From a virus, in the IMG/VR virus record IMGVR_UViG_3300050821_002597, positions 1 to 21,617 of that record: a stretch of DNA of 21,617 bases; one strand, 5' to 3'. The position numbers and the translations under genes are program-made. Shown in pieces: positions 105-10,026 of the stretch (position 1 is the stretch's first letter; the number at the start of each line of letters is the position of its first letter). The notes beneath the pieces are model-generated. The model did no database searches. It was not told where the DNA came from and saw nothing but the letters and a program-made list of their open reading frames with translations.

Positions 105-395
105 TCACCAGTGACGTCTGGTTGCCGAGGGATGACGCCCGATCAGGGCGCGGCCCAGGTCGAGCAAACGCGCGCGCTTGGCGTCAAGCTCCACCCATCC
201 CCTTGACTGCGCGTGATCGAGCGCCGCACGCAGCACCGGGCCTTCCAGCGGAAGTTTCCGCTGTAGCACATGCACCATCACCCATCGATCGGACTGGCCT
301 TGGCTGGCCAGATAAAGTTCCAGCACCGCAAGTCGGGCGTGGCTCTGGTGAGGTTGATGATCCGACAGAGCTACCCGAGGCCGTTCGTCCGTCAT
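105..395 (-). CDS. Small hypothetical protein after the endolysin, possible winged-helix fold
   Basis: The product is 96 aa. Its ATG overlaps the TGA of the M15 endolysin gene in the four-base ATGA pattern (392-395), so translation is probably coupled to the endolysin. Residues about 20-85 look like three helices followed by a short beta hairpin (RWVMVHVLQRKLPL, then a helix, then GWVELDAKRARLLDL), which resembles a winged-helix domain; this is a reading of the pattern only. It has no signal peptide or membrane segment and is rich in Arg and His. A DNA-binding or host-takeover role is possible but unproven. An upstream extension to 488 in the same frame is rejected because it would run through the coding region of the endolysin. 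Confidence 0.65.
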   Translation of the reverse strand: MTDERPRVALSDHQPHQSHARLAVLELYLASQGQSDRWVMVHVLQRKLPLEGPVLRAALDHAQSRGWVELDAKRARLLDLGRALIGRHPSATRRHW

Positions 396-883
396 GCAAC
401 GATGCCGTTGTAAGTGCCGCCGTTGTTGATGGTGAGACATTGGGCGCGCGGCGTGGTGGGCGGGATCGCGCGCCCGATATGGACCCAAGTCATTTCATAA
501 ATAAGTTGGTCGACGCCCCACTCGTTGAGGTGCGGCTCGATGGCGTGGCACACGTCGAGCGGCGAGCCGAAGTCGGGGATGATGAAGTCGGCAGCGCAAC
601 CGTAGAGGTGCGCGCTGTTAGCCGCGCCACCGACCGCCGCGTTGAGCTCCGGGCAGCGGAAGCCACTCGAGATCAGGACCGGCTGGCCGCCGCAGAGCGC
701 CCGGACTTTTTCGAGCAGCAGCGCCGTCTCGCCCAACTCGTCGACCTCGTCGGCATCGGGCAAGTTTTCGATGCCTTCAGCGTCGGCGGTGTCACTGGCG
801 ATCATTTCGGCCAGGGTGAAGTGTGGAGTCAGATGGCCGGGGGGCAACCGTGGCGGCTGCGGCGGCTCGTGGGCTTTGGGCAT
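392..883 (-). CDS. Endolysin, M15A-type zinc peptidase
   Basis: The product is 163 aa and is recognised as a peptidase M15 family (VanY/M15A) peptidoglycan-cleaving enzyme, used by many phages as the endolysin. The zinc and active-site pattern is visible: SSGFRC around residue 75, then SAH with His92, followed by a catalytic-region Asp99 in CAADF (an H-x6-D pattern), and His135 in WVHIG. The first 20 residues are proline-rich and there is no signal peptide, so release to the periplasm would need a holin. The start is the ATG with GAGG a few bases upstream. It lies 6 bp after the stop of a 77-aa two-helix membrane protein, the best holin candidate here. Its stop overlaps the next gene (ATGA). 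Confidence 0.9.
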   Translation of the reverse strand: MPKAHEPPQPPRLPPGHLTPHFTLAEMIASDTADAEGIENLPDADEVDELGETALLLEKVRALCGGQPVLISSGFRCPELNAAVGGAANSAHLYGCAADFIIPDFGSPLDVCHAIEPHLNEWGVDQLIYEMTWVHIGRAIPPTTPRAQCLTINNGGTYNGIVA

Positions 884-889
884 GGTTCC

Positions 890-1123
890 TCACTTCCGGG
901 TGACGCCAGCGAAGGCAAGCGCCGCCGCCAACGCTGCGGCAAGCAGACCCATCAACCGGCTGTTGGGATCGCAGTTCACGTCGGCCGCCGTGATCACGAT
1001 CTCGGCGTGCCAGATGCACGCGGCGGCGAAACTTAGGATGACAAGCGCGTGGACACCGATGACGAAGGCCACCAGCAGGAACGCCGCGCGTTGCGGATCG
1101 AACGGCGGCCGGTCATTCGACAT
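890..1123 (-). CDS. Small two-helix membrane protein, holin candidate
   Basis: The product is 77 aa. Residues about 13-36 form one hydrophobic helix and residues about 57-74 (LMGLLAAALAAALAFAG) a second, with a polar stretch containing two acidic residues and a Cys between them. The ends are charged (N-terminal Asp/Arg, C-terminal Arg-Lys). The size, two-helix topology and placement 6 bp before the endolysin fit a class II-like holin. The family is not recognised with certainty, so the role is inferred from context. The ATG has only a moderate purine-rich stretch (AGAGGCGG) about ten bases upstream. A second two-helix protein at 3361-3528 is the alternative candidate. Confidence 0.72.
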   Translation of the reverse strand: MSNDRPPFDPQRAAFLLVAFVIGVHALVILSFAAACIWHAEIVITAADVNCDPNSRLMGLLAAALAAALAFAGVTRK

Positions 1124-1141: not shown

Positions 1142-1393
1142 TTAGGCCGGTTGGTGAGTTGGTGCGTCCGGCGGCGGCGGGGGTGGATCAGGCGGCGGCT
1201 CGACCGGCGGCGGGTCGGGCAATTCCTCGGCCGTCACGGCACCCCACATGATATTCCCCATGCAGTGGACCAGCGTGGGATTTGAGTTGTCCTCGGCGGC
1301 CTGCATCGCGACGTGCGGGTTGCCCGACAGGGCCACCCACGCCATCCATTTTTCTTCGTCGTGCTGGGTCATCGGCTTGGGATCATCGGCCAT
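1142..1393 (-). CDS. Hypothetical 83-aa protein with proline-rich tail
   Basis: The product is 83 aa. The start ATG follows GGAGGA by five bases, a strong ribosome binding site. Residues 1-57 look globular, acidic and helical, with two Trp; residues 59-83 are a proline-rich tail (about half Pro, with P-P-P runs). There is no signal peptide or membrane segment. It sits between the 53-aa lipobox-like peptide and the holin candidate, so it is transcribed with the lysis genes. No family is recognised. In-frame extension upstream to 1750 is rejected because it would overlap two better-supported genes. Confidence 0.7.
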   Translation of the reverse strand: MADDPKPMTQHDEEKWMAWVALSGNPHVAMQAAEDNSNPTLVHCMGNIMWGAVTAEELPDPPPVEPPPDPPPPPPDAPTHQPA

Positions 1394-1413: not shown

Positions 1414-1575
1414 TTAGACGCGTCGAATGATGATGATCGGCGCCACGAATTGAATGGGCTGCGCGTAGTATTGCCACGCCGTGTTGCTCTGCGGCGCGTA
1501 GGCCACTGGCCCGGCGATCACCATGGTGGCCGACTGTCCGCAGGCGAGCAGTGCGCCGACGATGCACGACAGCAT
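1414..1575 (-). CDS. Small 53-aa hydrophobic protein with lipobox-like Cys
   Basis: This short gene encodes 53 aa beginning MLSCIVGALLACGQ and ending PIIIIRRV. Its ATG is preceded by GGGAGG with a six-base spacer, which is the main reason to accept it; it also fills the gap between two other genes exactly, with a 20-bp gap carrying the next ribosome binding site. The N-terminal hydrophobic stretch ends in L-L-A-C, close to a lipobox, so lipidation at Cys12 is possible, but the N-region lacks the usual Lys/Arg. The middle (residues 22-45) is rich in Ala, Pro, Gln and Tyr. It could be a small outer-membrane lipoprotein, and an o-spanin is conceivable. No family is recognised. Confidence 0.6.
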   Translation of the reverse strand: MLSCIVGALLACGQSATMVIAGPVAYAPQSNTAWQYYAQPIQFVAPIIIIRRV

Positions 1576-1586
1576 GGCGAGCCTCC

Positions 1587-1940
1587 CTAATTTTGGCGGG
1601 GCTGGAAACCATATTGCTCGGCTTGATAGGGCGCGAGCATCGGCAGTTGCTGTGTCGGCGGCGTGACGGTCGGTCCAGCGCCCACCGCCGGGCCGCCGGT
1701 TGACGGGTTGATGACGATGGTCGAGCCCTGTGCGCCCGCGCTCGGATCACCGACGCCGTTGCCAGAGTGGACCTCGCCCTCCGGCGTGATGGTCTGCCAG
1801 TAGCCGTTGGCGCATTGGATGGTGTTGTTCACTCCATTCGGCACCGACCAGCACGGCACCTGCTGCGCCATCGTCGCCGTGATCACCAGCACCACGATCG
1901 ACAGAGCCAGTGCGATCAACAGGCCCTGCCGAAATGTCAT
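1587..1940 (-). CDS. Membrane-anchored or exported 117-aa protein
   Basis: The product is 117 aa. The start is taken at the ATG that overlaps the upstream TGA (TGATG, 1938-1942) and not five codons earlier. Residues 6-24 are strongly hydrophobic (LLIALALSIVVLVITATMA) after a single Arg, so the protein is either N-terminally anchored or cleaved after AMA-Q type residues. The exported part has two Cys close to the membrane (about 30 and 43), which could form a disulfide, and then a Gly/Pro/Thr-rich low-complexity tail with no coiled coil. The lack of a coiled coil argues against a classical i-spanin. It belongs to the exported gene group at 1414-3244. The function is unknown. Confidence 0.72.
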   Translation of the reverse strand: MTFRQGLLIALALSIVVLVITATMAQQVPCWSVPNGVNNTIQCANGYWQTITPEGEVHSGNGVGDPSAGAQGSTIVINPSTGGPAVGAGPTVTPPTQQLPMLAPYQAEQYGFQPRQN

Positions 1941-2722
1941 CAGATGTAGCCGCACGAAGCGCCCGCCGTTCCGACAGCGACCTCACGACCACGAGCGTCC
2001 ATGCACGCGAAGCGCCCTGTCGGCTGGAACGGCTGCGCGGTGGTCGTGCGCATGATCGGCTGCGGCGTCGCCGCCACAGGACCAGGTGCGGGCGTGCCGT
2101 CGAACTGCGGGCGCGGCTGACAGGGCTGGCCGGACGAACGGAAGGCGAAGTAAGTGGCCTTGTCGTTGCACATCAGTTCCTTGGCCGCACCGGCATAGCC
2201 CGCGTTGTGGATCATCGCGATCTTCTGCCTCGTCGCGCAGTCCTCGTCCACGAAGGTGCCGCCCGCCGCCGCACCCCAGCCGATCACCGAGACGCCACCC
2301 GACACCGCGAGCGTGCACGGGTTGCCCCCGGACACCGGCGGCGCATACACGGTCGGTGTGGTGCGCACCGTGATGTCGGACTGACCGTAGAACGGCGGAT
2401 TGTTGCCGCCGCCTCCGACGCCGTTGCTGCCGTTCGCGCCAGCAGGTCCGGCCGGGTCAAGCGGGCTGCCCGCGCCCGAGTTGAACGTGATCGGAATGTT
2501 GTTGTTGGTCGTGGAGTTTACGCGCTGGTTGGTGCGCTGCTGATTGGACGACGTGCCCGAGGTGGTTGACGCGCCGCTGGCACTGCCGCTCGAACTGGTT
2601 GCGGTCGAGCCCGAGCTGGACGTTGAGGAAGAACCGGAAGTGGAGGTCTGCGCCTTGGCAGGCAGGCCCTGCAGCGCCAGCGCGGTCACGGCCAGCGCGG
2701 CGAAACTCACAAGAGCTTTCAT
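1940..2722 (-). CDS. Secreted serine-rich protein with six cysteines
   Basis: The product is 260 aa. Residues 1-24 are a clear signal peptide (Lys2, hydrophobic core, cleavage expected after AKA). The mature protein starts with a Ser/Thr/Gly linker (26-60), then an Asn- and Gly-rich stretch (70-110), then a compact domain at about 115-202. That domain has the spaced pattern Pro-Cys136, GVSVIGWG, Asp-Glu-Asp-Cys162, and Met-Cys185 to Pro-Cys201, with Cys240 and Cys257 near the end. Six Cys in an exported protein suggest disulfides. Similar Cys-domain proteins occur, from memory, as hypothetical exported proteins in alphaproteobacterial phages and prophages. It lies 108 bp after the 137-aa secreted gene and overlaps the next gene by one base. 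No function can be assigned. Confidence 0.82.
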   Translation of the reverse strand: MKALVSFAALAVTALALQGLPAKAQTSTSGSSSTSSSGSTATSSSGSASGASTTSGTSSNQQRTNQRVNSTTNNNIPITFNSGAGSPLDPAGPAGANGSNGVGGGGNNPPFYGQSDITVRTTPTVYAPPVSGGNPCTLAVSGGVSVIGWGAAAGGTFVDEDCATRQKIAMIHNAGYAGAAKELMCNDKATYFAFRSSGQPCQPRPQFDGTPAPGPVAATPQPIMRTTTAQPFQPTGRFACMDARGREVAVGTAGASCGYI

Positions 2723-2766
2723 GGGTGGAGATCCTGACGAGTGGGTTGAAGTGATCCTTCGCCACG

Positions 2767-2803
2767 CGCCGTCCCCGAGGGTGGGTGTTCCCCGAGGACG
2801 GCG
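2767..2803 (-). terminator. Hairpin after the 137-aa secreted gene, possible terminator without a U-tract
   Basis: An inverted repeat has arms CGCCGTCC (2767-2774) and GGACGGCG (2796-2803), and the loop itself contains GGG/CCC stretches and a repeated CCCCGAGG. It lies in the 108-bp gap, 28 bases after the stop at 2831. No T-run follows on the minus strand, so it is either a factor-dependent terminator, an RNA stability element or a processing site. Confidence 0.4.
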
Positions 2804-2830
2804 ATGGCACCCGATAACCTGACGTCAGGC

Positions 2831-3244
2831 TTAGGGCAGGGGCGACAGAACGATGGTGAAGAAATTGCCGGTCGTCGCCGCACCGGAATTGCCGTTGGCA
2901 CCGGCATTCGATCCGCTGACATTGATCGCGCCGCCGATGGCGAACGAAGCATTGTTCGCCTGCGTCTGCGACGTGTTGACGTGGCTCGACGTTCCGGTGG
3001 TGCCGCCCGGCGTGGTCTGTGAGGTGCCGGTTGCCGTGCCGGTATTCTGGCCCGCTCCGGTGGTGGTTCCGGCGGTGACGCCGAAGATGGCCGTCGCGCC
3101 ATTCGACGCGCTGGCCGAGTTGGAAGCACCCTGGCTGACGGTTTGGCTGGAGCCGACAGCGACGGTGAGCGAGGCCGCCTGTGCGATGCCGGACAGGGCG
3201 AGCAGGGCGGCAAGAGCGACAGAAGCTAGAAGATGCTTACGCAA
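2831..3244 (-). CDS. Small secreted Ser/Thr/Asn/Gly-rich protein with TTG start
   Basis: The product is 137 aa. Residues 1-23 are a textbook signal peptide (MRKH, Leu/Ala core, cleavage after IAQA). The mature part contains no Cys and is dominated by Ser, Thr, Gly, Asn, Gln and Ala, with repeated short units such as GASNSASASNG and GTATGTSQTT, and ends in a more hydrophobic NFFTIVLSPLP. The start codon is TTG: it is preceded by GGGAGA at a normal distance, and only this start gives the positively charged N-region. The gene sits alone between a probable terminator (3349-3380) and a hairpin (2767-2803). A surface, adhesin-like or exclusion role is conceivable. No family is recognised. Confidence 0.75.
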   Translation of the reverse strand: MRKHLLASVALAALLALSGIAQAASLTVAVGSSQTVSQGASNSASASNGATAIFGVTAGTTTGAGQNTGTATGTSQTTPGGTTGTSSHVNTSQTQANNASFAIGGAINVSGSNAGANGNSGAATTGNFFTIVLSPLP

Positions 3245-3300
3245 GGTGTATCTCCCAAAATGAAGCGGGGCACAGGACCATCCTGCGACCGGCGCGGCTA

Positions 3301-3329
3301 CTTATCACGTTGTGCGCGAAATTAAGTGA
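3301..3329 (-). promoter_or_regulatory. Weak candidate promoter for the secreted gene
   Basis: On the minus strand TCACTT (3329-3324) and GATAAG (3306-3301) are separated by 17 bases, in a locally AT-richer 100-bp gap about 60 bases before the TTG start. The match to sigma-70 boxes is poor. The case rests mainly on context: a terminator lies just upstream and a new gene follows. Confidence 0.22.
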
Positions 3330-3348
3330 CGATCCGCACGCCGGTCCC

Positions 3349-3380
3349 AAAAAAGTCGGCCTAGCGCAGTGGCGGCCCGA
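3349..3380 (-). terminator. Intrinsic terminator after the fibre / small membrane protein unit
   Basis: On the minus strand the six-base-pair stem TCGG(G)CC / GGCCGA, with one bulged G and a 12-base loop, is followed by C and then six T (3354-3349). The stem overlaps the last codons and stop of the 55-aa membrane protein gene. It would end transcripts coming from the tail genes before the secreted-protein gene. Confidence 0.55.
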
Positions 3381-3528
3381 ACACCTGCCAGCCGAGCAAG
3401 GCGAAGAGCAGGAACGGGATGAGCGCGATGCCCAGCACGCCATAGGTGCCGAGCAGCGCGAAGTGCCATGCGATGCCGACGACGAGCCAGATGATCATCA
3501 GCACCCAAAACGCGAGCCCTCGTGTCAT
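3361..3528 (-). CDS. Small 55-aa membrane protein with two helices
   Basis: The product is 55 aa beginning MTRGLAFWVLMIIWLVVG and ending GPPLR. Two hydrophobic helices are visible at about residues 5-24 and 28-49, separated by a very short turn (GTYG), with Arg3 and Arg55 at the ends, so both termini are probably cytoplasmic. The ATG has an excellent ribosome binding site (GGGAGGT, five to six bases upstream). It lies 52 bp after the fibre accessory gene. A holin role is possible, but the endolysin is 2.5 kb away and a second two-helix protein lies next to it. Other small-membrane-protein roles such as superinfection exclusion are equally open. Confidence 0.72.
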   Translation of the reverse strand: MTRGLAFWVLMIIWLVVGIAWHFALLGTYGVLGIALIPFLLFALLGWQVFGPPLR

Positions 3529-4016: not shown

Positions 4017-5150
4017 CTACACCGACAGATATTCGGTGATGACGACAATGCCCGGCGCGCCAGCCGCCCCGTTGATCAGACTGCTATTGCTGTCCGTCGT
4101 CGCGCCGCCCGCGCCGCCACCGGGGATTGTTCCGGGATTGCCACCATTGCCGCCCGCCGAACTCATCGTGCCGGCCGCGCCGCCGCCGAAGTAACTCGAG
4201 CCGCCCGTGCCGCCCAGCCCGTAGCCGTTCGAAGCCGTGACGAGAAATCCGGCCCCACCGCCGCCGCCGACTGCCGTAAAATCTCCCGTCGCGCCCGCTC
4301 CGCCTGCACCTCCCGGAGCGTTGGAAGGCAAATTCCCCAAACCGCCGCCGCCGCCCGGCGCGATGCACAAAGTCCCGACGCTGGTCGTCCCTCCCGCGCC
4401 GCCGTTCACTCCGGCACCACTACCAGCAACACCGCCCGCGCCGATGGTCACTGGTAACGAGGCCCCAATCATTGCCGCTGTGGCGGTCTTGCGCGCATAG
4501 GCTCCGCCGCCGCCGCCGCCGCTCCCCAACGAGTAGCTCGAACTGTTCGCGTTACCAGCCACCGCACCGCTGCCGCCACCGCCGCCGACTGTTTCGAGCA
4601 CGCAGTAGATCATGCCCGGCGTCGGCACGTAGGTGCCGGTGCTGGTGATTGTCCGCACCTTGATCGCGTTGGGGACCGACGAGATCGAGCCACTGCGCCC
4701 GAACGTGATCGAGTTTTGCAGCACCCCCGCGTCGTTGTAGCTCGACAGCACCAGCGCACCCGCGCCGTTCACCGTCATGCGCCAGTCTTTGACATCTATC
4801 GGATTGCCGGTCGCGTTCCAGCGCACCATCGGGTTCGCCGCCGCCTGCGCGAGCAAGACCGCAGCGGCAAACTGGCCACCAGCCGCAGCGCTGATCGTGA
4901 CGGCCCCGGTCGTGGTGTTCAGGGTGAACAGCGGCACGTCACCTACGGCGGCCGACACGAACCATTCAAGTATCCACGCACTCGCGCCGCCCGCATCGTT
5001 GATCCACAACTGGCCCGGCACCACATAGGGTGGCCGGGTGCCGCCGCGATGGTAGGACAACAGGGCGTCGCGGAACTGGTTGAGGTCGTCCGCGAGCTGC
5101 ACGCCGTCGACCACATACGGGTCGATTACGCCGAAATCGAACTGGCTCAT
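4017..5150 (-). CDS. Tail fibre / receptor-binding protein with polyglycine-rich tip
   Basis: The product is 377 aa. Residues 1-160 form an N-terminal shaft or attachment part, with a segment around 40-90 (PGQLWIND...FTLNTTTGAV) typical of phage fibre N-termini. Residues about 163-377 are a glycine-rich domain that opens with TITSTGTYVPTPGM and has many G-runs (for example 189-193, 211-216, 266-270, 295-299), closing with PGIVVITEYLSV. Glycine-rich tips of this kind pack as polyglycine-II sandwiches in phage adhesins such as that of Salmonella phage S16, where loops between the glycine stretches contact the receptor. It follows the J gene by 33 bp and precedes its accessory protein. Host-receptor binding at the tail tip is inferred. 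Confidence 0.85.
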   Translation of the reverse strand: MSQFDFGVIDPYVVDGVQLADDLNQFRDALLSYHRGGTRPPYVVPGQLWINDAGGASAWILEWFVSAAVGDVPLFTLNTTTGAVTISAAAGGQFAAAVLLAQAAANPMVRWNATGNPIDVKDWRMTVNGAGALVLSSYNDAGVLQNSITFGRSGSISSVPNAIKVRTITSTGTYVPTPGMIYCVLETVGGGGGSGAVAGNANSSSYSLGSGGGGGGAYARKTATAAMIGASLPVTIGAGGVAGSGAGVNGGAGGTTSVGTLCIAPGGGGGLGNLPSNAPGGAGGAGATGDFTAVGGGGGAGFLVTASNGYGLGGTGGSSYFGGGAAGTMSSAGGNGGNPGTIPGGGAGGATTDSNSSLINGAAGAPGIVVITEYLSV

Positions 5151-5183
5151 TGTGGGTCTGCCCCGCTTTTGGATTTTGGGCGT

Positions 5184-8100
5184 TTAAGAGTGGCCGCCGT
5201 AGCCCTGTACGAAGTAGTCGATGGAACCGCCTGCCGTTGGTGCGCCAGACGCGTTGCGATGTTCGACCTTGAAGTGGTTGGCGTCGGACTCGATCACCAC
5301 GATATTGCCGCCCGCGATCAACCCCTGCCGCGCCGTGATCTGCACCGTTGGGGTGGCGAGGAACCCGACCACGTAGGTGACCACCAAGTGTCCGGTGCCA
5401 TCCATGGCCACGTCGCTGCCTTGGATGTTGCGCAAGGGGATGTTGAGAATGACCGCCGCGCGTATCGTTCGCATCGTGGTGAGCAAGTCATAGAGCGCCC
5501 CCACCAGCCGGAACTGAAAGGCGCGGCCGGTGATGATGGTGGACTTGAGTGGAAACCAAGGGGCGTAGGTGCTGCCGTCCTGACTGACGGCGCACTCGAT
5601 GTGACCGTCCCACTGTGAAGACGATCCCATGGCCAGCGGCATCGCCTGCGCGAGCGGCACCCACGAGGACATGGTGTTGTTGGCTCCCGAGGCCAACGGC
5701 TGGGCCACGGAGATCGACGGCACCCACTGGGCCATCACCGTGCCGAGGTACATGCCATAAGCCAGAACGATCGCCACAACGGACACGTTGCTGCACACGA
5801 TCCCGAGGTCGAGGGTGTTCTGAAAACCGTAAACGGCAACGCGCGTTGCCGTCTGGTTGAGGGCCACGCCACGGTCCCCGGGGAAGATGCCGGGCGGTAT
5901 CGTCTCTGGCGCGGCGGGCGGCGGCAACATCAGCTCGCCGAGATTGACATGCCAGTTCGCCCCTCGGTTGCCCAGCCAAAGCGGCTGTTCCTCGATGTCC
6001 GTCACATGCACCAGTTCGGTGATCTGGGGGATCAGGATCGCCATCGCCGCGTCCACCGACTCCTGCCCCAGCGAGTCGATGGTCTTCACCATGTAGGTTC
6101 CGGCGCGCGACGGCGTGTTGATCTGAGTGGTGTCCACACTCACTCGCGCGATCGAGGTGGTGGCCCGTTCCCACGTGGCGCTGCCGTCAGTGACCGGCGA
6201 CCATTTGAGCCAGAAATACAGCACGTCCAGTTCGCCGGTCGGTATCCAAGCCACGGTCACCAGCGGCCCGTTCGGCGAAAGGAAAATGTTCGACGGCACC
6301 AGCGGCCTGGCCGACAGGCCGATGGGAGTGAATGTCAGTGTGATCGGCGCGGAAGCGTGGCCCAGGTTGTCGTAGGCGGTCACGGTGACCGTCCACTGGC
6401 CCGGCCGCATCAGCGGCACGTCCTGCACCACAGTGTTGAGATTGCGGAACGTGCGGTAGTCCGCGTTCGGTCCGCTCATTTCGAGCTGGTAGCGGGTGAC
6501 GCGCCCGTCCGGTGACCCGGTCCACGACACGATGACGCCGAACTGCGGATAGCCCGTGCCGTCGAGGTAAATATATTCTTTGTAGTTGAGGTTTGACGCA
6601 GGCGCGAGCGGCCCGGTTGGGATCAACGACGTCGGCGGCTCGGGGATCACCAGACCATAGTCGACGTACGCATATTTTTCCGGGTGGTGCTGCGTGGCCA
6701 TGATCTCGTACAGGCCGGAACCCTTGTCGCTGATCGAGGCCACGCGCCACGTGGTGGGTTCCACCACGTTGCTCACGATCATCCAATTGGAGCCCGGCAG
6801 AAACGCGCCCGGGTTCGGCTTGCCGGACACGCGGATCTGATTGGGGTTCGCCGCGACCATTCCCACCACGCCAAGGCTGAACAGGCTCGGCCGGTAACCA
6901 TCGGCCGCCGACCCGGCGGTGACGTAAATGGTCCACCCGGTCCAATCGCCGGGATAGGGCAGGCGGTCGAGCGTGAGGGTGTCCACGCCTTGGTCGTCGA
7001 GCAGCCGCCCGGCCATGCGCGCACCCACGCGCGACGGGTCGGAAATGTTGATGATGTCGCCGGGCCGAAGGTCGGCGTTCTCAAGCCCGACCTGAAACGT
7101 GGCCAGTTCGGTTTCGTTCTGGTTGGTGTAGATGGTCCATCGGCCCAGCCGGATCGCCTGCGTCCTCACCGTGCAGCCGTAGGCCACCACCGTGTTGGAC
7201 TCGCGATAGCTCTGCGTGGCCACGTAGCTGGGGTCCTGCACCAGCTCCACGGCCTGCTGATAGGTGTCGGCGGGATCGATCCATTGAACCGGCACCGCGT
7301 TCCAGCGGCTCTTAACGTCGGCCCCGGCATAGTCGAAAATTCCGTTCACCACGTCGGACGGCGAGAACAGCCGGATGGGATTGCCGGGCCGGTCCTGCGC
7401 GAGAAATACCGTGCCGTTGGCGAAGTAGATCTGCGCCAGCATGTTGGACGCCACGGCGGTGAGGACCGTGTAGGCGTCCTGCCGGGTGTTGATGATGCCG
7501 TTGAAGGTGAACCGGGGCTCGTAGCCACCGAACTGCGCGGGAACGCCGCCGTCGCAGTATTGGGCGGCCTCGTAGAACGACCACTTGTCGACGTTGGCGG
7601 TGTTGAGGTAGCGGCCCAGCCCCCACCGTTCGTTGGTCAGCAGCGCGTAGAGTATCCACGCCGGGTTGTTGGTCCACTGGACATAGAACGACCCGTCCCA
7701 ATCGCCGCTGTAGCTGCGCGAGCGCGGTTCGTAGTTGGTGGGCAGTTCCACCATGATCCCGTCGAGCATGTAGGCGCGGCTCGGGATGCTCGGGAACTGT
7801 TCGGCGTCCACCGTGATGGAGATCATCGCCGTGTCGTCGTAGGCGAGCTGCTGGTAGAGCATTTCGGTGTAGCTCGACCAGATAAGATCGTTCGTCGTCT
7901 TGGGCTCCACGTCGGGTGACAGCCGCTCGATGCGGATGTTCTGGGTGCCGTCGGTGTAGGGAACCGACGCCACCACGGAACGCATATACGGGGAGTTGGT
8001 CTTTCCCCAGATCGCCTCCGTCACCACGTTGGTCCAAAGACCGCCATCGGTTTGTACGTCGAACGCATAGGCCACCGACGCCCCGTTGATGTCGCCGTCG

Positions 8101-8603
8101 TCCTCGGTCATCCACAGCGCGGGGATTTGCAGCTTGTACCGCACGGCGTGAATTGGGGTGTTGATGGCCTTGACGATGGGCACGCCGAACATGGCCTGCA
8201 CACCCACGTTGAATTCCGCCTCGATGAACGGAAAACCGGCGATGGCGTCCTGTGAGGGGTAGCCGTAGCGGGCGTCGGCCTCGAGGATGTTGAACTGCCA
8301 GTTTCCGCCGAAGTCCTCGACTTGGGTGCCGTCGAGGTAAACGGCCTGCCACCACGAGGTGGCGGGTGCGGCCGGTCCATAGATCACGCCCTCCGACACC
8401 ACCTCCAGAATTCGCGCGGTGGACATCGAGCGCAGCGTGTTGGCGAAATTCACCGGCTGGTGCGGCGTCTGCTGCACAGGCTGGGCACCGGCACCACCCT
8501 TGCCGCCCTTGGCCGCGATCCGATTTCGTTCATTAAGTCTGCGCGGGTCGGCAATTCGGCGCACGTGAACGCCGACCTGGGTGTCGCGGCCGCGGCGGTT
8601 CAT
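5184..8603 (-). CDS. J: Tail tip attachment protein J (central fibre, host specificity)
   Basis: The product is 1139 aa, similar in length to lambda J. The chosen ATG overlaps the TGA of gene I (ATGA, 8600-8603); in-frame extension to 9128 is rejected because it overlaps gene I and reads as low-complexity Arg/Gly/His shadow. The basic N-terminus (about 1-50, Arg/Lys/Gly) leads into the conserved J region (RILEVVSEGVIYGP around 64-77, QAVYLDGTQVED at 86-97, and the long baseplate-hub-like part to about 650). Two fibronectin type III-like domains follow at about 660-765 and 770-865, then a C-terminal region that ends in a short Gly/Ser-rich tail. J forms the hub and tip of the tail and determines host contact. 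It is the last gene of the M-L-K-I-J block. Confidence 0.92.
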   Translation of the reverse strand: MNRRGRDTQVGVHVRRIADPRRLNERNRIAAKGGKGGAGAQPVQQTPHQPVNFANTLRSMSTARILEVVSEGVIYGPAAPATSWWQAVYLDGTQVEDFGGNWQFNILEADARYGYPSQDAIAGFPFIEAEFNVGVQAMFGVPIVKAINTPIHAVRYKLQIPALWMTEDDGDINGASVAYAFDVQTDGGLWTNVVTEAIWGKTNSPYMRSVVASVPYTDGTQNIRIERLSPDVEPKTTNDLIWSSYTEMLYQQLAYDDTAMISITVDAEQFPSIPSRAYMLDGIMVELPTNYEPRSRSYSGDWDGSFYVQWTNNPAWILYALLTNERWGLGRYLNTANVDKWSFYEAAQYCDGGVPAQFGGYEPRFTFNGIINTRQDAYTVLTAVASNMLAQIYFANGTVFLAQDRPGNPIRLFSPSDVVNGIFDYAGADVKSRWNAVPVQWIDPADTYQQAVELVQDPSYVATQSYRESNTVVAYGCTVRTQAIRLGRWTIYTNQNETELATFQVGLENADLRPGDIINISDPSRVGARMAGRLLDDQGVDTLTLDRLPYPGDWTGWTIYVTAGSAADGYRPSLFSLGVVGMVAANPNQIRVSGKPNPGAFLPGSNWMIVSNVVEPTTWRVASISDKGSGLYEIMATQHHPEKYAYVDYGLVIPEPPTSLIPTGPLAPASNLNYKEYIYLDGTGYPQFGVIVSWTGSPDGRVTRYQLEMSGPNADYRTFRNLNTVVQDVPLMRPGQWTVTVTAYDNLGHASAPITLTFTPIGLSARPLVPSNIFLSPNGPLVTVAWIPTGELDVLYFWLKWSPVTDGSATWERATTSIARVSVDTTQINTPSRAGTYMVKTIDSLGQESVDAAMAILIPQITELVHVTDIEEQPLWLGNRGANWHVNLGELMLPPPAAPETIPPGIFPGDRGVALNQTATRVAVYGFQNTLDLGIVCSNVSVVAIVLAYGMYLGTVMAQWVPSISVAQPLASGANNTMSSWVPLAQAMPLAMGSSSQWDGHIECAVSQDGSTYAPWFPLKSTIITGRAFQFRLVGALYDLLTTMRTIRAAVILNIPLRNIQGSDVAMDGTGHLVVTYVVGFLATPTVQITARQGLIAGGNIVVIESDANHFKVEHRNASGAPTAGGSIDYFVQGYGGHS

Positions 8604-9271
8604 GGCGCAATGTCCGATGCATCGACCATGGCCGACACCACCACGCTGCCGGTCAGGTGCGTGCCGAACACCAGCGGCACCGGCCCACCCTGCTGGGTGT
8701 TGTTGACGATGCCGTTGAACAGGAACGACGGACGGTCCTGCGGCGGCGCGCTGTCGGTGGGCGAGGCGTTGACGCCGGGAATTCCCTGCGGCGGCTGGGC
8801 CATCATTCCGGCCACCCCTCCCAGCACCATCGACGCTCCCAGCACCGCCACGTTGGCCGCCGATATGCCCATGAAGCTCGCTCCGGTCATGGCCGCCCCG
8901 AACCCGCCCAACGTGCCCATCGCGGCAAAACCGGCGGGCGCGGCAAGACCGGCGGTCACGATCGACGCCCCGATCAGCACCACACCGGCCGCAACCTTGC
9001 CCACACCATCGCCGCCCGCCGCGCCAGTGGCCGGAACCAGGTGCAGCGGCAACGCGCCGATGTTCATTGCCGCCGTGTGAACCTGTATCGCGTTCGCGAT
9101 GTGAGGTGATCCCACGATGATCCGCCACTGGCCCTCGCGGATGGCCTCGCGCAGACCCGGACGCAATGTCATCAGGGCCCGCACCGCTTCGGCTGGCGAC
9201 GACACGTCAAGGCGGAAGCGACGCCCGAACCGTCTGCCCGCTGCGCCGTAGAGGAAAACATCCCGCATCAT
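8600..9271 (-). CDS. I: Tail assembly protein I
   Basis: The product is 223 aa, close to lambda I in length and in the same place between K and J. The first 60 residues are a small folded domain (DVSSPAEAVRALMTLRPG and QWRIIVG). Residues about 90-157 are an unusually long Gly/Ala-rich hydrophobic region, typical of this family, and the C-terminal part includes NGIVNNTQQGGPVPLVFG and GSVVVSA. The start is the first of two adjacent ATG codons because it overlaps the TGA of K (ATGA, 9268-9271). In lambda this protein is needed for tail tip initiation but is not in the finished particle; the same role is inferred here. Confidence 0.88.
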   Translation of the reverse strand: MMRDVFLYGAAGRRFGRRFRLDVSSPAEAVRALMTLRPGLREAIREGQWRIIVGSPHIANAIQVHTAAMNIGALPLHLVPATGAAGGDGVGKVAAGVVLIGASIVTAGLAAPAGFAAMGTLGGFGAAMTGASFMGISAANVAVLGASMVLGGVAGMMAQPPQGIPGVNASPTDSAPPQDRPSFLFNGIVNNTQQGGPVPLVFGTHLTGSVVVSAMVDASDIAP

Positions 9272-10026
9272 TTTCGGCGCAACCCCATGGTGAAGTGACG
9301 GGTGTAGCGCACGCGCGGCACCGCCGCCGACAGTCGGGTGCTGTCCACGGCCCGCACACCCGCCGCGTGGTGGAGCAGCAGGTGCTGGTCGAGCACCACG
9401 GCCCCGTGCATCGGAACCTTGTTGTTGAAATTCATCAGCACCAGATCGCCGCGCTGGGTGGCGGTGGCCGGGTCGATCCTGACGAACCCCGCCCGTTCGA
9501 AGTTTTCGGTGTAGAGGTCCTGTCCCTTGGTCCACCACTCCCAATCGCGCGGCCCGTCGTGAAACTCGATGCCCTGCTCGCGGAAGAAATCCCGGATCAG
9601 GGAACAGCAGTCGTGCACACCATGACGGAAGCCCCGACCCACCAGCGGCGCGGGCTTGAGCATGTCGCCCCAGCAGAACGTGTCGGGCACCGGCCACACC
9701 ATCACCACGAAGGGGATGCCGAGCTGTATCTGGTAGACCATGTCCGTCTGCGACGGCGAACCCAGCCCGTCCGGATGGCTGTGAAAGAACACGTCCGCGT
9801 CGGCCACGCGCAACAGGTCGGCGTCGGACAGGAACACGTCGGCGTCCGGGGTGCGGCTTATGTTGTCGAGGCGCACATACTGGCCACCCTCCACAATCCC
9901 GGCGGCCTCGAGGGGATAGACCTCGGCCGTGTGGTCTCGCGCCGCTTGGTGGATCTCCGCCGTCCACGCCTCGGGCCAAGCCGGGCACATCGGCACGGGG
10001 AAGCGGGCGGTGATCGTGGTGTTCAT
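9268..10026 (-). CDS. K: Tail assembly protein K: JAMM protease plus NlpC/P60 domain
   Basis: The product is 252 aa with the two-domain layout of lambda K. The N-terminal JAMM/MPN domain shows the zinc pattern His82-x-His84-Pro followed by Ser92-x2-Asp95, with Glu40 in PLEAAG as the likely catalytic acid. The C-terminal NlpC/P60 domain has Asp139-Cys140 (nucleophile) and His207 in MHGAVV, with a pair of His at 219-220. NlpC/P60 domains cleave peptidoglycan peptides, so the protein may process tail components and help DNA entry. It overlaps L and I by ATGA on both sides, which supports tightly coupled production of the tail tip proteins. Confidence 0.92.
   Translation of the reverse strand: MNTTITARFPVPMCPAWPEAWTAEIHQAARDHTAEVYPLEAAGIVEGGQYVRLDNISRTPDADVFLSDADLLRVADADVFFHSHPDGLGSPSQTDMVYQIQLGIPFVVMVWPVPDTFCWGDMLKPAPLVGRGFRHGVHDCCSLIRDFFREQGIEFHDGPRDWEWWTKGQDLYTENFERAGFVRIDPATATQRGDLVLMNFNNKVPMHGAVVLDQHLLLHHAAGVRAVDSTRLSAAVPRVRYTRHFTMGLRRK

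Follow-up and report, generated by a model that had tools for sequence, protein, structure and literature searches.

Phage morons are defined as insertions that separate a pair of genes found side by side in related phages (PMC4378225). They usually carry one coding region with its own promoter upstream and its own terminator downstream, their base composition is usually unlike that of their neighbours, and some are expressed from a repressed prophage (PMC4378225). RNA hairpins that lie between the genes of an operon and lack a U-tract protect the upstream cistrons of operons such as malEFG and puf (pufBALMX) (PMC5927463). We analysed a 21,617-nucleotide stretch of viral DNA (here called the window) in which a first-pass annotation had described a single-gene moron, with one secreted-protein gene bracketed by an intrinsic terminator and a GC hairpin. 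We found that this gene (gene A) leads a four-gene cassette of exported-type proteins, A-B-C-D (137, 260, 122, and 53 aa), and is not a one-gene moron. By sequence comparison, the cassette is accessory and mobile among tailed phages, in the late region.

Gene A and its predicted product

Gene A lies on the minus strand (2831..3244), begins with a TTG codon preceded by the Shine-Dalgarno (SD) sequence TTTTGGGAGA, and encodes a 137-aa, Thr/Gly/Ala/Ser/Asn-rich, predicted exported protein. Its N terminus reads as a signal peptide of the AQA|A type with an n-region and a hydrophobic core, the mature protein contains 18% T, 17% G, 16% A, 15% S, and 10% N with no Cys, and the conserved C terminus is GNFFTIVLSPLP. 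Among five relatives, substitutions in the gene fell mostly at third codon positions and dN/dS was 0.10 to 0.23; because of this pattern of change, we consider it a real gene on the minus strand that is under purifying selection. A plus-strand ORF of 136 aa that overlaps gene A was set aside because the substitutions track the codon positions of the minus frame. Thus, the TTG-started signal-peptide gene of the first-pass annotation is borne out, as is its picture of a Ser/Thr/Asn/Gly-rich, Cys-free protein without a family, since gene A gave no Pfam, PHROGs, or NCBIfam match above chance.

A profile search found gene A in 19 viral records. Its homologues are present in 19 of 19 cassette records at 30 to 95% identity, and among relatives the mature part aligns without gaps apart from the last two residues. 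No relatives of A were found in the phage, plasmid, and bacterial genome collections searched, and neither A nor B had a convincing relative among solved structures. The AlphaFold model of A was poor (pLDDT 47), as was that of B, and both were too poor for a Foldseek search. An internal repeat within A was not supported.

Genes B, C, and D and the flanking genes

Gene B (1940..2722, minus strand) encodes a 260-aa predicted exported protein with a Ser/Thr-rich N-terminal part and a conserved Cys domain (VYAPPVSGGNPCTLAVSGGVSVIGWG...). It matches phrog_20531, with E values of 3.7e-5 for the window protein, 7e-10 for the B protein of L022, and 4e-5 to 3e-18 across B and its relatives, which include a protein of Pelagibacter phage HTVC023P. 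A Pfam match of B to New_glue was rejected, being below the cut-off and limited to the low-complexity N-terminal part. In the same Pelagibacter phage, the PurM (phosphoribosylaminoimidazole synthetase) annotation of gp44 (L041 3977-4621) is doubtful, as the translation did not seem to resemble that enzyme.

A pattern scan for B in bacterial genomes gave no matches. The B domain also occurs in bacteria, in Novosphingobium humi and Burkholderia cenocepacia. On the N. humi plasmid (L106 7092-8741), an exported Gly/Ser-rich ORF precedes a B-domain protein that ends in an OmpA domain (PF00691). On the B. cenocepacia replicon (L107, about 4200-9530), two exported Gly/Ser-rich ORFs come first, then the B-domain protein, and then the gene of a VpsR-domain sigma-54 activator. 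Homology between A and these bacterial Gly/Ser-rich ORFs was not established, as shuffled sequences scored equally for two of the three.

Gene C (1587..1955, minus strand) shares 16 nt with the end of B and encodes a 122-aa exported or membrane-anchored protein with two Cys residues. Gene D (1414..1575, minus strand) encodes a 53-aa, probably exported protein of the form MxCIVGALLC...AWQYYAQPI...RRV. The N termini of all four proteins are predicted to be of export or membrane type. In the loci examined for the 19 viral records with A, B adjoins A and A comes first, and the two were never apart in the records seen. In addition, C follows B in most carriers, of 15 loci examined, 12 have a D homologue after C or B, and no promoter before B was seen in a scan of the window.

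Between D and the holin-like gene, a further minus-strand ORF of 83 aa (1142..1393) has a match in another cassette only in a near-identical record. The cassette is flanked on the left by m54 (3361..3528, minus strand), a gene for a 54- to 55-aa two-helix membrane protein that is strongly conserved in tail-module relatives, where, if there is no cassette, it sits next to the holin-like gene; m54 is possibly part of the lysis system. On the right are the holin-like gene (890..1123, minus strand; 77 aa, two membrane segments, no family match) and, by profile match, a Peptidase_M15_3 endolysin gene (392..883, minus strand). We also observed that small ORFs starting MIGCLxLAFALC..., Tyr/Gln/Pro-rich with YYxQPVY repeats and probably exported, recur in carriers close to their lysis or terminase genes (L018 2152; L024 10453; L022 4926-5207; L061 1877-2143).

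An accessory block at varying positions

A search with a tail gene found 38 structural-module loci. Five mapped tail-module loci carry the cassette, with the fibre gene or m54 on one side and the locus end or lysis genes on the other, while A and B were absent from all the available sequence of 15 of the 16 tail-module relatives searched, several of these records being fragments. One relative, L137, has an empty site in which the m54 stop codon is 1 nt from the ATG of the holin-like gene and there is no cassette; in the window, about 2.2 kb lies between these genes. In L121 and L128, the same interval contains an unrelated ORF of ~80 to 90 aa. The cassette is downstream of a tail-fibre gene in the window and in L003, L004, L006, and L024, and homologous blocks occupy other positions in other phages: after terminase (L012, L022, and L061), after DNA polymerase A (L019 and L023), and after endolysin (L005). 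The GC content of the insert does not differ from that of the window (65.8% versus 65.0%).

The empty site in L137 and the other positions elsewhere support the core of the moron idea, for the four-gene block. What stands of the earlier reading, by this comparison, is an accessory block between phage modules; the single gene and the bracketing terminator do not.

A tyrosine integrase gene is present in the near-identical 46-kb record and in two other cassette carriers. No tyrosine or serine integrase was found in carriers of 39 to 69 kb, records that may be incomplete. Lysogenic conversion is therefore possible for this phage, but it cannot be assumed as a general rule among carriers, given those without an integrase.

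Structured RNA between genes A and B

The A-B intergenic RNA of the window (2723..2830, minus strand) folds into a three-way-junction-like structure (z of -4.8 for the whole spacer) that contains a long GC hairpin at 2767..2803 (minus strand; minimum free energy [MFE] of -38 kcal/mol, z of -4.0). The first-pass annotation had placed one edge of its unit at this hairpin. The hairpin is real, but the unit continues past it into genes B, C, and D. Since it lacks a U-tract, we take its role to be protection or regulation and not termination. Four compensated pairs were seen among six sequences with the window-type spacer. Directly 3' of the A stop codon, CCTGACG is complementary to CGTCAGGA, which carries the SD of B; we offer this pairing as a suggestion for a switch, and go no further because L008 lacks the first copy.

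Strong structure between A and B was found in 17 of 17 loci folded (z of -3.0 to -6.6). Eight relatives have another spacer design, an 11-bp hairpin with compensatory changes among its pairs and a loop whose length is constant at 7 nt. A 6-nt segment of the loop is complementary to CGUGGG or variants of it (CGUGGG/CGUGGA/CUUGGC) located 12 to 25 nt downstream, forming a pseudoknot, and in L032 and L061 this loop pairing is altered on both sides, that is, it covaries. The covarying pseudoknot hairpin is always located between A and B (L022 7577-7728; L023 6255-6406; L024 8415-8566; L020 6978-7122; L061 5584-5725; L054 5505-5647; L019 7717-7838; L032 5853-6026). Rfam gave no gathering-threshold matches for the A-B spacers of the window and nine relatives, and at an E-value threshold the L022 spacer gave chance-level hits only. 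An exact-match probe with a 15-mer from the pseudoknot returned 34 hits, of which 4 had the loop partner, all in already-known cassettes; the 15-mer was dropped as an independent probe because the partner occurred only there.

The leader upstream of gene A

The 116-bp gap upstream of gene A (3245..3360, minus strand) had been described as AT-richer than its surroundings, and it is: its GC content is 57.8%, compared to 65% for the window, and only 4.4% of 116-bp windows rank as low. This cassette leader contains CACTTAATTTCGCGC-N-CAACGTGATAAGT, a GC stem-loop (GCAGGATGGTCCTGTGC), and the SD GGGAGA. The block is conserved in L003, L004, and L006 and in part in L005; it accompanies window-type cassettes, and partly so in L005, where the context differs. 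We regard this conserved block as the likeliest place for a putative promoter or operator. No sigma-70 promoter matches above those of shuffled sequences were found in 13 leader contexts.

The intrinsic terminator that had been proposed at 3349-3380 was rejected. The folding energy of this segment is worse than that of shuffled sequences (MFE of -10.4 versus -15.3, z of +1.98), a terminator scan made no report there, and the GC part of the segment belongs to the end of the conserved m54 coding sequence. The T6 run taken as the terminator tail (3349..3354, minus strand) is missing or shortened in relatives. No hairpin followed by a U-run was found on the minus strand in the scanned region.

Proposed function and alternative explanations

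The best explanation of these observations, to which we give about an even chance, is a mobile four-gene surface cassette that yields A in excess over B and an altered cell surface. Transcription would run from the cassette's own leader or by late read-through. The A-B structures that lack a U-tract may act as decay terminators, as a translational brake on B, or as both; because hairpins of this kind protect upstream genes (PMC5927463), A would be produced in large excess over B. Once exported, A could coat the cell envelope or form fibres on it, B with its cysteine domain could be a minor partner in the envelope or an anchor, and the roles of C and D would be accessory. The outcome would be a changed surface of the infected or lysogenic cell, such as receptor masking or adhesion. 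The OmpA domain fused to the B domain in Novosphingobium is peptidoglycan-binding, and this fusion, together with the predicted export signals, favours an envelope role. The VpsR-type regulator gene beside the B-domain gene in Burkholderia also enters into the surface reading. As judged from these features, the cassette proteins probably alter the surface of the infected bacterium.

The neighbourhood of lysis genes is the main argument for a different reading, in which the cassette would be an accessory module for lysis or release, with B and its partners targeting the outer membrane or periplasm at lysis and replacing or supplementing spanins. The window cassette directly precedes the holin-like and M15 endolysin genes, many carriers have an endolysin or holin-like gene within about 2 kb in either orientation, and no spanin was recognised. 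In Pelagibacter phage Mosig, a B-domain protein also adjoins a GTA_holin_3TM gene, and in Pelagibacter phage HTVC023P one is near an M15 peptidase gene. However, the holin-like gene and endolysin are retained in tail-module relatives that have no cassette and no A or B in their available sequence, and in L019 and L023 the cassette instead follows DNA polymerase A. In the stretches read, the bacterial B homologues adjoin no recognised phage gene, and one has the OmpA domain; the low-complexity, export-type composition of A is also unlike that of lysis proteins. We regard a lysis function as rather unlikely.

Another reading would keep A as a classical single-gene moron, with the hairpin as its terminator and B-C-D transcribed separately. 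This would account for a strong hairpin right after A and an AT-rich leader before it, but a U-tract is missing from the hairpin, A and B always occur together in the records seen, B and C overlap, and no promoter was seen before B, and we judge this arrangement to be quite improbable. It is very unlikely that A to D are virion-associated or decoration proteins with misleading signal-like N termini: decoration genes can be morons (PMC4378225) and the cassette follows a tail-fibre gene in the window and four other loci, but terminase or DNA polymerase genes precede it in other phages, export-type signals are kept at the starts of A, B, and C in relatives despite diverged mature parts, and B has conserved cysteines, as expected for exported proteins.

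The surface cassette can be extended, tentatively and with low confidence, to an undescribed mobile system in which a major fibre-like protein (A) and an envelope partner (B), held at a fixed ratio by a new class of pseudoknot RNA, would serve several unrelated groups of phages to remodel the infected cell's surface. If this is true, a movable set of exported proteins, with RNA control of the subunit ratio built in, is common to uncultured phages that are not related to each other, and it would give phages a concrete means of altering the surfaces of bacteria. The relatives' A-B spacer is itself a covarying pseudoknotted RNA absent from Rfam.

Comparison with known systems

Like phage morons, the cassette is inserted between genes that adjoin in relatives, its position varies, and it may benefit a lysogen. 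In contrast to morons, it has four genes instead of the usual one, it lacks an intrinsic terminator and a demonstrable promoter, its base composition is that of its neighbours, and several carriers have no detectable integrase. Among known phage proteins, gene B matches phrog_20531, whose function is unassigned, whereas gene A has no PHROG. The A-B spacer shares with the decay-terminator hairpins of pufBALMX and malEFG a stable structure without a U-tract between two operon genes (PMC5927463), but the phage cassettes usually have two or three hairpins, eight relatives have the covarying pseudoknot, and the phage elements are known here from sequence. Finally, the loci of the Novosphingobium humi plasmid and the Burkholderia cenocepacia replicon resemble the cassette in that a B-domain protein comes after exported Gly/Ser-rich ORFs, and they differ from it in the OmpA domain carried by the Novosphingobium B protein and in that C and D were not seen.
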